Shown piece by piece: positions 39,586 through 42,541 of a DNA stretch of 64,000 nt. Source of the DNA: Polaribacter butkevichii (GTDB lineage Bacteria; Bacteroidota; Bacteroidia; Flavobacteriales; Flavobacteriaceae); the NCBI RefSeq assembly GCF_038024105.1, contig NZ_CP150661.1, forward strand, positions 1,197,001 through 1,261,000, in the 5' to 3' direction. How positions within the stretch are numbered: position 1 is the stretch's first letter; every line of letters starts with the position of its first letter. The notes under the pieces were generated by a model. That model was not told the origin of the DNA. It did no database searches and saw only the letters and a program-made list of their open reading frames with translations. Both the position numbers and the translations under genes were made by a program.

Positions 39586-40614
39586 TTAGTTTGCTTTATA
39601 CTCCTTAACTGCGTCTACAAACGCTTTTGCGTTTTCTAACGGAATGTTTGGTAAAATACCATGGCCTAGATTTACAACTAATCTATCTTTACCAAATTCA
39701 TTAATCATTTGGTGTACCATTTTTTTGATAACTGCTGGTGGAGAGAACAATCTTGATGGATCGAAATTACCTTGTAAGGTAATTTTTCCGCCAGATAAAT
39801 AACGAGCGTTTCTTGCAGAACACGTCCAATCTACACCTAATGCAGAAGCGCCAGATTTAGACATTTCGTCTAAAGCAAACCAACATCCTTTACCAAAGGC
39901 AATTACTGGGGTAATGTCTTTTAAGGCATCGATAATTTGTTGCATATATTGCCAAGAGAATTCTTGATAATCTACAGGAGATAACATTCCTCCCCAAGAA
40001 TCAAAAACTTGAACAGCATCTACACCTGCTGCAACTTTTGCTTTTAAATAGGCAATAGTTGTGTCTGTTATTTTTTGTAATAATGAGTGTGCTATTACAG
40101 GGTTTGTAAAACATAATTCTTTTGCTTTGTCAAAGTTTTTAGAACCTTGCCCTTGTACACAATAACATAAAATTGTCCAAGGTGAACCTGCAAAACCAAT
40201 TAACGGCACCTCATCATTCAATTTTTCTTTGGTTGCTTTAATTGCTTCCATTACGTAACCTAAAGTGTCTTGAATATCTGGAACAATTACGCTATCTAAA
40301 TCTTTTTGAGAACGAATAGGATTTGGTAAATAAGGTCCAAAATTGGGTTTCATTTCCACTTCAATATTCATTGCTTGTGGTATTACCAAAATATCTGAAA
40401 ACAGAATGGCAGCATCCATACCAAATCTACGAATTGGTTGTACTGTAATTTCTGATGCTAATTCTGGAGTTTGACAACGTGTAAAGAAATCGTACTTTTT
40501 TTTGATTTCTTGAAATTCTGGTAAATATCTTCCTGCTTGACGCATCATCCAAACTGGTGGACGGTCTACAGTTTCTCCTTTTAAGGCTCTTAAAAATAAA
40601 TCGTTTTTTATCAT
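39586..40614 (-). CDS. hemE: Uroporphyrinogen decarboxylase
   Basis: 342 residues. HemE removes four carboxyl groups from uroporphyrinogen III to give coproporphyrinogen III. The N-terminal signature [18 protein letters not shown] is complete, and [44 protein letters not shown] and [10 protein letters not shown] follow as expected. Followed after 1 bp by the isomerase gene. The 151-bp spacer upstream is filled by a CGCAAAG-type palindrome. Confidence 0.98.
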
Positions 40615-40640
40615 GATTTTAAACGCAAAAGCGTAATGTT

Positions 40641-40763
40641 TTTTAAACGCAAAGACGCCAAGTTATTTCGCAAAGGTCGCAGAGTTTTCTAGTCTCTTTT
40701 AAAGAATTAACTATTTATTTCTTGGCGCACTTTGCGCTTCCCTTTGGGGCTTTGTGGTTATTT
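40641..40763. repeat. CGCAAAG-type palindromic repeat, left of the GxxExxY gene
   Basis: Left arm AACGCAAAGACGCCAAG then CGCAAAGGTCGCAGAG (40646-40686). The right arm, read on the minus strand from 40763, is AACCACAAAGCCCCAAAGG then GCGCAAAGTGCGCCAAG. The arms pair imperfectly across an A+T-rich centre. The same type of repeat borders the other side of the gene at 41154-41240. Confidence 0.75.
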
Positions 40764-40765
40764 TT

Positions 40766-41143
40766 TTACAAATTATTTACTACTCTTTTAATACCGTATT
40801 TTATTAAAGCAACGTTAAAATTAATTAACAAACCTAATTTACATTCTGATAGCTTTAGATAAGTTAAAACTTGAGCTAAATGAACATCATTTATACTTTC
40901 TACTGATTTTAGCTCAACAATTACTTTATCTTCAACTATTAAATCTATTCTATAACCTACATTGAGTTTTACTTCTTCATAAACTAAAGGCAATGCTTTT
41001 TGTTTTTCTACATTTAGATTCCTCTTCCCTAACTCATAAAACAAACATTCCTCATAAGAACTTTCTAAAAGACCTGGACCTAAAGCTCTATGAACTTTTA
41101 AAGCGCAGTCTACAATAATTTTAGAAATTTCGTTTTCAGTCAT
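40766..41143 (-). CDS. GxxExxY protein (PD-(D/E)XK nuclease-like fold)
   Basis: 125 residues. The name motif is GLLESSY (Gly, Glu, Tyr spaced as GxxExxY) in HRALGPGLLESSYEECLFYE. It is followed by a restriction-endonuclease-like core: YRIDLIVEDKVIVELKSVE contains the D...ExK residues, and AQVLTYLKLSECKLGLLINF is the conserved end. Function is unknown. It is tightly bracketed by two palindromic repeats (3 bp from one, about 10 bp from the other) and interrupts an otherwise compact heme cluster between hemL and hemE. This suggests the gene and repeats arrived or move together. Confidence 0.92.
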   Translation of the reverse strand: MTENEISKIIVDCALKVHRALGPGLLESSYEECLFYELGKRNLNVEKQKALPLVYEEVKLNVGYRIDLIVEDKVIVELKSVESINDVHLAQVLTYLKLSECKLGLLINFNVALIKYGIKRVVNNL

Positions 41144-41153
41144 TTTTTTTGTT

Positions 41154-41240
41154 TAAACGCAGAGGCGCTGAGTTTTTCGCAAAGGTCGCAAAGGTTTTAT
41201 AAATATTTCTTTGCGACCTTTGCACTTTCCTTTGCCTCTT
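41154..41240. repeat. CGCAAAG-type palindromic repeat, right of the GxxExxY gene
   Basis: A perfect 15-bp inverted repeat GCAAAGGTCGCAAAG (41179-41193) / CTTTGCGACCTTTGC (41209-41223) sits inside wider imperfect arms: AAACGCAGAGGCGCTGAG from 41155, and on the minus strand from 41236 AACCGCAAAGAGGCAAAGG. Same family as the repeat at 40641-40763. Confidence 0.85.
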
Positions 41241-41245
41241 TGCGG

Positions 41246-42541
41246 TTACTTTTTCATTTTTGAAACAGCTAACATTCCCTTATCAATCGCTTCTGCTATT
41301 TTTTTAATATCCTTATCTGATAAAGCAGAGGATAAAAACCATGCTTCAAACTGACTTGGAGGTAAGAAAACTCCGTTTTTGATCATTTCCCAAAAGAAAA
41401 CAGCAAACTTTTTTGTATCAGACAATTGTGCCTCTACAAAGTTGGTAACTTCGCTATTTACAAAGAAAGGATTTAACATAGAACCAAATCTATTTACCGT
41501 TAAAGCTACATTGTATTTCTTAGCAGTTTCTAATAAAATTACTTCTAAAATAGCCCCTATTTCTTCGAACTTTTTATACGGATTTTGTTTTTTCAACTCT
41601 GTTAAAGTAGCGATTCCTCCTGCCATTGCAATTGGATTTCCACTTAACGTTCCTGCTTGATACATTCCGCCTAAAGGTGCAACTTCTTGCATAATTTCTT
41701 CTCTTGCTCCGTATGCCCCCACTGGGAAACCTCCTCCAATAACCTTACCTAAACACGTAATATCTGCTTCTACGCCTAATAATTCTTGTGCTCCACCAAA
41801 TTTAGAACGGAAACCGGTCATTACTTCATCAACAATTAACAACGCTCCTTTGGTTTCTAAATACGCCTTTAATTCTGCTAAGAAATTATTTTCAGGAACT
41901 ACAACGCCCATATTACCTGCAATTGGTTCAATAATTACACCTGCAATATTATCGTCGTTTTCGAAATGTTTTTTTACACTTTCTAAATCATTATAATTAG
42001 AAATTAATGTGTTTTTTACAGCTCCTTCTGGCACTCCTTTAGAACCAGGTAAACTTAATGTTGCTAAACCAGAACCAGCTGCTACTAATAAAGCATCTTG
42101 ATGACCATGATAACAACCTGCAAATTTTATAATTTTATCCTTTCCAGTAAAGGCTCTTGCTAAACGGATTCCGCTTAAAACAGCTTCTGTACCAGAATTT
42201 ACAAAACGTACTTTATCCATTCCTGGAAAAGCATCGCAAACTATTTTTGCTAATTTAATTTCGTTTTCTGTAGATGCTCCAAAAGAATATCCATTTTTCA
42301 ATGCTTTTTCAACAGCTTTTTGCACTTTTTTATGTCGATGACCTAAAATCATTGGTCCGTAAGAAAGCACTAAATCTACATATTTATTACCATCAACATC
42401 TGTAATTTTAGTTCCTTTTGCTTTTTTGATAAACAACGGATTACCACCCACTGATGAAAATGCTCTAACAGGAGAATTTACACCTCCAACAAGGTTTACC
42501 AATCCTTTTTTATATAATTTTTCTGATTTTTTGAATTCCAT
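41246..42541 (-). CDS. hemL: Glutamate-1-semialdehyde 2,1-aminomutase
   Basis: 431 residues. A PLP enzyme converting glutamate-1-semialdehyde to 5-aminolevulinate in the C5 pathway. Seen: GGVNSPVRAFSSVGG at the start, FVNSGTEAVLSGIRLARAF, GCYHGHQDALL, IVDEVMTGFR, and the PLP lysine in GKVIGGGFPVGAYG. Length is standard. It lies between hemB (upstream, separated by a TCGAG palindrome) and the GxxExxY insert. Confidence 0.98.
   Translation of the reverse strand: MEFKKSEKLYKKGLVNLVGGVNSPVRAFSSVGGNPLFIKKAKGTKITDVDGNKYVDLVLSYGPMILGHRHKKVQKAVEKALKNGYSFGASTENEIKLAKIVCDAFPGMDKVRFVNSGTEAVLSGIRLARAFTGKDKIIKFAGCYHGHQDALLVAAGSGLATLSLPGSKGVPEGAVKNTLISNYNDLESVKKHFENDDNIAGVIIEPIAGNMGVVVPENNFLAELKAYLETKGALLIVDEVMTGFRSKFGGAQELLGVEADITCLGKVIGGGFPVGAYGAREEIMQEVAPLGGMYQAGTLSGNPIAMAGGIATLTELKKQNPYKKFEEIGAILEVILLETAKKYNVALTVNRFGSMLNPFFVNSEVTNFVEAQLSDTKKFAVFFWEMIKNGVFLPPSQFEAWFLSSALSDKDIKKIAEAIDKGMLAVSKMKK

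Follow-up and report, generated by a model that had tools for sequence, protein, structure and literature searches.

A GxxExxY nuclease-like gene framed by inverted palindromic arrays: a candidate REP-like selfish unit

The window, a 64,000-nucleotide stretch of Polaribacter butkevichii DNA (NZ_CP150661.1, positions 1,197,001 to 1,261,000), carries a small GxxExxY gene (40766..41143, minus strand) between two minus-strand genes that we take to be hemL (41246-42541) and hemE (39586-40614). An initial annotation had described this gene as encoding a 125-residue protein with a PD-(D/E)XK-like core, framed by two imperfect palindromes of CGCAAAG-type units, and our analysis upheld this layout. The protein scores 155.1 bits against the TIGR04256 GxxExxY profile (cut-off 35) and 147.7 bits against PF13366, PDDEXK_3 (cut-off 22), the latter being its sole Pfam family at E values up to 1e-3. 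Residues E27, Y30, D67, E77, K79 and Q91 are invariant across 60 GxxExxY sequences, and the structure model is a confident PD-(D/E)XK fold (predicted local distance difference test score, 95.4). The conserved D and ExK residues together with this fold place the protein in the PD-(D/E)XK superfamily with an active site that is predicted to be intact, and the gene is under purifying selection. PADLOC returned weak Cas4-type matches only and PHROGs a weak CRISPR-associated match, and a sequence search of solved structures with protein A1 as query found none at E values up to 1. The family is large: a single search yielded no fewer than 8000 relatives. It occurs in 8 of 72,556 plasmid records at 1e-10, and no phage match was found at 1e-8.

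Both palindromes are arrays of short units, neither assigned to a strand. The hemL-side array (41154..41248), upstream of the gene, overlaps the hemL stop codon and has 40-nt arms, 70% complementary and 15 nt apart; it contains the perfect 15-bp inverted repeat that had been reported in it (41179-41193 / 41209-41223, 15-nt loop). The end given for this array in the initial annotation omitted eight bases. The hemE-side array (about 40644..40766), downstream of the gene, is less perfect and belongs to the same unit family; it shares with its partner one 51-nt stretch (80%) and one 23-nt stretch (91%). A partial extra unit copy (40615..40643, family D1) adjoins the hemE start. As single-stranded DNA, both repeats fold better than 200 of 200 shuffles (z -5.9 and -3.6). 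With up to two mismatches allowed, CGCAAAGNNCGCAAAG forms four unit pairs in the whole window, all at the GxxExxY repeats, against 0.18 expected, and four copies were reached in none of 100 shuffles. The only Rfam match in 40500-41400 up to E 1, mir-556 (E 0.58), scores far under the gathering threshold and was rejected as chance. Elsewhere in this genome, a second GxxExxY gene is surrounded by CGCAGAT/CGCTGAT-type units and a third by CACTAAT/CACGAAT-type units, while CGCAAAG arrays without a gene lie at C1:473021, 1154509, 1321423, 1361343 and 2721185.

We examined how general the bracketing is in three sets of loci. The genus set comprised 58 genomes, 22 with a match, from which 30 of 35 listed matches were taken as loci and 29 entered the array test; the named-genome set comprised the best 80 of 575 confirmed stretches, 74 with room for flanks. 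On these discovery sets (103 loci) we framed an array rule of two inward-facing CRCNNA[GT] words, spaced 8-11 bp apart and within 170 bp of the gene. A held-out phylum set of 148 genomes, 73 with a match, supplied 28 new loci and 40 fetched from listed matches, of which 63 were tested after removal of five at contig ends; every held-out protein was less than 85% identical to any discovery protein. DNA 1.3 kb away (far flanks, mostly coding) served as control.

Arrays flanked 87 of 103 discovery genes on at least one side and 43 on both, compared with 0/97 and 0/95 far flanks and 0.3% of shuffles. Among held-out loci the counts were 42/63 and 27/63, compared with 1/63 and 1/63 far flanks and 0.2% of shuffles, bearing out the enrichment that the initial annotation had proposed looking for. 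Inward-facing arrays prevailed over the wrong orientation in both discovery (60% and 66% vs 20% and 15%) and held-out loci (36 and 33 vs 12 and 10 of 63), and the downstream side carried an array as often as the upstream side. Held-out proteins with a discovery relative of at least 60% identity had an array in 30 of 33 cases. A motif-free test beat every far control in 55/74 named and 38/63 held-out loci. When inverted similarity between the two flanks, exceeding all far controls, was accepted as an alternative to an array, 31/33 near and 23/30 distant held-out loci qualified. Four distant loci (L297, L321, L325 and L292) apparently carry other units, judged by eye. Across 152 loci, the spacings between units peak at 9-10, 20-21 and 29 bp, close to one, two and three helical turns. 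Two held-out GxxExxY genes (L323 and L324) have no arrays, and L324 seems, to judge by a motif, to have a gene for type I restriction specificity as its neighbour, so that some members of the family may work in other settings.

Under the same array rule, genes are bracketed on both sides in Cyanobacteriota (L185, L191), Chloroflexota (L184), Thermodesulfobacteriota (L196), Ignavibacteriota (L192, L197), Planctomycetota (L139) and Fidelibacterota (L180, L182), while Acidobacteriota (L167) and Verrucomicrobiota (L181) each provide a one-sided case; most loci from these phyla are metagenome bins. Of five plasmid records inspected among the eight, units lie to either side of the gene in those of Gemmatirosa and Bernardetia, that of Sphingomonas has one upstream array, its gene lying between fabD and fabG, and those of Fusobacteria and Treponema have weak units at most. 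The GxxExxY unit of L068 separates a pair of co-oriented genes that resemble nuoF/nuoG or formate dehydrogenase subunits.

Although CGCAAAG describes the ends at the window locus, it is too narrow for the family, as the unit type varies with the protein. Within the genus, five protein subfamilies correspond to five unit types; this pairing is weak evidence because the subfamilies share sites, and a within-genus Mantel test of 25 of the 30 loci (leaving out the near-duplicates L065, L070, L076 and L078 and the broken L082) was set aside as confounded by the same sharing. We therefore rely on the 113 loci outside the genus, where 6276 of 6328 pairs are below 75% identity. There, a partial Mantel test of protein identity against cross-end array similarity, with GC difference removed, gave 0.361, a value reached by none of 300 permutations (maximum 0.105), compared with 0.018 (69 of 300 permutations) for far flanks. 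On a tree of 162 proteins, 126 of them with units, unit letters 2, 5 and 7 undergo 18, 21 and 3 changes, where shuffling gives means of 41.9, 44.3 and 17.9. Because far flanks retain no similarity at equal protein distances, the arrays appear to be kept up and not simply inherited. There is a link in trans: genomes with a type A or a type E protein more often have arrays of that type at a distance from the gene (p 0.003 and 0.0017).

Comparison of gaps among genus relatives points to turnover at fixed sites. Seven of 30 hemL gaps (G000, G043, G005, G013, G047, G006 and G026) hold the gene with CGCAAAG arrays, the G026 copy being a pseudogene, so gene and repeats are not fixed between hemL and hemE. 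The remaining gaps are plain and short or contain other genes, CGTC-type repeats or GCTAAAAGCC-type repeats; that of G044 holds a four-helix-bundle gene and that of G019 half an array. The gap after map (30 examined) contains type D in eight genomes (G000, G034, G038, G051, G015, G047, G013 and G018), and type B in five (G040, G037, G036, G026 and G009). G032 retains a remnant with an internal deletion, the stretch in G052 is degraded, G050 and G041 have another gene there, and 13 genomes have none. A tree of the 18 genomes common to the three gene sets requires nine changes at the map site and four at the hemL site. At the map site, the sisters G034 (type D) and G037 (type B), joined with an SH-aLRT (Shimodaira-Hasegawa-like approximate likelihood-ratio test) value of 99, differ by the swap of one gene-plus-arrays cassette for the other. 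In several map gaps (L229, L236 and others) the following gene has a GTG start that overlaps with the outermost type D unit (AATTCGTGTC); at this start TTCGTGTC persists in several map gaps that lack the gene, and it may be a scar or a target. Palindromes without a gene were also seen among 30 loci of the M42-NUDIX gap, of type A in G000 and G040 and of type D in at least G034, G037, G038, G032, G051 and G052; in three M42-NUDIX gaps (L333, L329 and L338) a different palindrome is seemingly nested within the loop of a type D palindrome. None of the best 80 of 575 named stretches adjoins hemE, map or the methyltransferase, and hence the sites are shared within the genus and different outside it; among these 80, one has a 32% match to hemL, and in four the resemblance to the type C site is a generic ABC-transporter match.

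Frames matched to the protein, frames without a gene and exchange of gene together with frame are what would be expected from a selfish unit resembling the repetitive extragenic palindromic (REP) sequences and their REP-associated tyrosine transposases (RAYTs). We favour, with a probability of about 0.5, a minimal chromosomal REP-like unit of this kind, consisting of two inverted short-unit arrays with one small gene between them, whose product, a Cas4/RecB-like PD-(D/E)XK nuclease, would recognise and process its own unit type. The recognised frame would be CRCNNA[G/T], with letters 2, 5 and 7 dependent on the protein and units about one helical turn apart. Action of the nuclease on the arrays, or on hairpins formed by them, could then set off repair by which the unit is copied into intergenic gaps, is stripped of its gene down to the palindromes alone, or is exchanged for another unit. 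We infer the recognition, the cutting and the repair-driven movement from sequence patterns. A bolder reading, to which we lean less than to its opposite, makes GxxExxY a Cas4-like family with an evolvable DNA recognition code, whose lineages read, spread and maintain their own palindromes, forming a class parallel to REP/RAYT but of independent origin in many phyla, with four-helix-bundle genes as a sister class; we lowered our estimate for it slightly because the CRCNNA frame is found mainly in nearer relatives. A family named solely for a motif gains a testable partner in its own repeats; if the reading holds, many short intergenic repeats of Bacteroidota would gain an owner, and the variation of letters 2, 5 and 7 with the protein would offer natural protein-DNA specificity pairs.

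Several observations weigh against a mobile unit driven by the nuclease. The 30 genus loci occupy only four shared sites and two singletons, so that movement is at most rare; the interpretation offered in the initial annotation is supported in part. By-eye comparison of gaps found no target-site duplications, the whole gap usually being replaced. Among more distant held-out proteins only 12 of 30 loci show the CRCNNA frame, 9 of 63 held-out loci have neither array nor inverted similarity, and many genomes have arrays without the gene. Letter 4 does not track the tree (24 changes, shuffled mean 27.8, minimum 24). Genomes with a type A protein are richer in type E arrays as well (p 0.0099, with two genomes having both), and since the genomes are also related, the link in trans is not clean and is supporting only. 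Finally, four-helix-bundle genes, which are not known to encode nucleases, share the layout: at 21 of 29 such loci (one of 30 was cut) the flanks beat every far control.

The nuclease may therefore not be the mover. A RAYT-like transposase or host recombination could move the units while GxxExxY and four-helix-bundle proteins bind the arrays or ride along, an account that we consider unlikely but the strongest of the rivals. Four-helix-bundle genes (PF05635, 23S IVP) are present in 46 of 58 genus genomes, with 12 in P. butkevichii itself, and the G044 hemL gap shows one at the same place as the GxxExxY unit; an invariant nuclease site under purifying selection is nonetheless more than an end-binding passenger needs. 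The four-helix-bundle genes inspected (L199-L228; L106) are bracketed by inverted arrays of quite different units, for example AACGAAY, AGGGATT, AGTATTA and TAGCTTTTGGC, and hint that small genes bracketed by unit arrays form a broader class. All 29 (about 12 sites) are co-oriented with both neighbours, and no tracking of unit by protein was shown for them (rho 0.05, 687 of 2000 permutations, 12 sites).

Less probable again is that the protein binds stationary arrays as operators, regulating itself or its operon, or as protective sites in defence. Purifying selection on the gene and arrays at its flanks would fit, as would the excess of loci co-oriented with both neighbours (28/29 in the genus, at about 6 sites, and 49/66 wide loci, compared with 30/57 triples in the window); operators, though, would not account for downstream arrays as frequent as upstream ones, arrays without the gene elsewhere or replacement of whole cassettes, and for defence PADLOC offers the weak Cas4-type matches alone. 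The same sense orientation within operons, along with the terminal inverted repeats and open reading frame of known rRNA intervening sequences (passages in PMC4990558), could suggest an RNA-level element whose arms pair in the operon transcript and whose insert is excised from RNA. We regard this as very improbable: mismatches within the arms are not enriched for G.U (19 v 29, 44 v 56), four-helix-bundle loci go in the opposite direction (11 v 25), and an RNA stem between the arms was rejected on this ground. Ordinary intergenic hairpins or terminators beside the gene by chance are scarcely credible, for although the M42-NUDIX gap does hold several unrelated kinds of palindrome in different genomes, unit type is tied to protein type and CRCNNA[G/T] arrays flank four-helix-bundle genes, an intergenic control, in only 1 and 0 of 29 cases.

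Among known systems, 23S rRNA intervening sequences, as described in passages of PMC4990558, likewise place a small open reading frame within terminal inverted repeats and are viewed as selfish, but their S23/four-helix-bundle frame lies in an rRNA gene, whereas the GxxExxY unit encodes PF13366, is intergenic and has no sign of RNA pairing; identity with them is ruled out by its position between hemL and hemE and by its protein. Compared with Cas4/RecB-like PD-(D/E)XK nucleases, the GxxExxY protein is much smaller, and no CRISPR genes were seen beside it in the loci inspected, a systematic search not being part of this. The Rpn (YhgA-like) recombination-promoting nucleases, associated with horizontal transfer and subsequently with defence against phages in the portions of PMC5350276 and PMC10327210 consulted, are also a nuclease family, but the window protein does not match their Pfam family (E up to 1e-3) and, with PF13366 its only family, is not an Rpn. 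The heptanucleotide or short tandemly repeated repetitive (STRR) sequences of cyanobacteria and others are similar intergenic short-unit arrays whose owner is not known, and the passages on them in PMC4679880 and PMC4692102 tie them to no GxxExxY or four-helix-bundle gene. No account of GxxExxY genes with repeats was found in the literature searched, which lay mostly outside subscription journals and covered few preprints; the two papers in it that contain 'GxxExxY' use the name once each, in other contexts.

The closest parallel is REP/RAYT, including the REPtrons and TIRtrons treated in passages of PMC3733652: a small gene within its own palindromic repeats, and gene-less copies in intergenic regions. 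The comparison drawn in the initial annotation is a fitting analogy. The RAYT enzymes are tyrosine transposases of the IS200/IS605 type (same passages), whereas the window protein matches PF13366 only and no HUH/tyrosine transposase; REP ends carry a GTAG or CGTC tag, whereas the window arrays end AACCGC / AAACGC; and REPs number over 100 per genome (passage in PMC2817692), whereas the type A pattern, with up to one mismatch, has 12 matches in this genome. With no HUH gene, no tag and few copies, the GxxExxY unit is not REP/RAYT by descent; if our interpretation is right, it would work like a REPtron with a different enzyme. CGTC repeats have no known transposase (passages in PMC3733652), and CGTC-tagged REP-like hairpins (CGTCATTACGAGG...GCAATGACG) lie in the hemL gap of relatives (L090, L092 and L100) and in an M42-NUDIX gap (L335).
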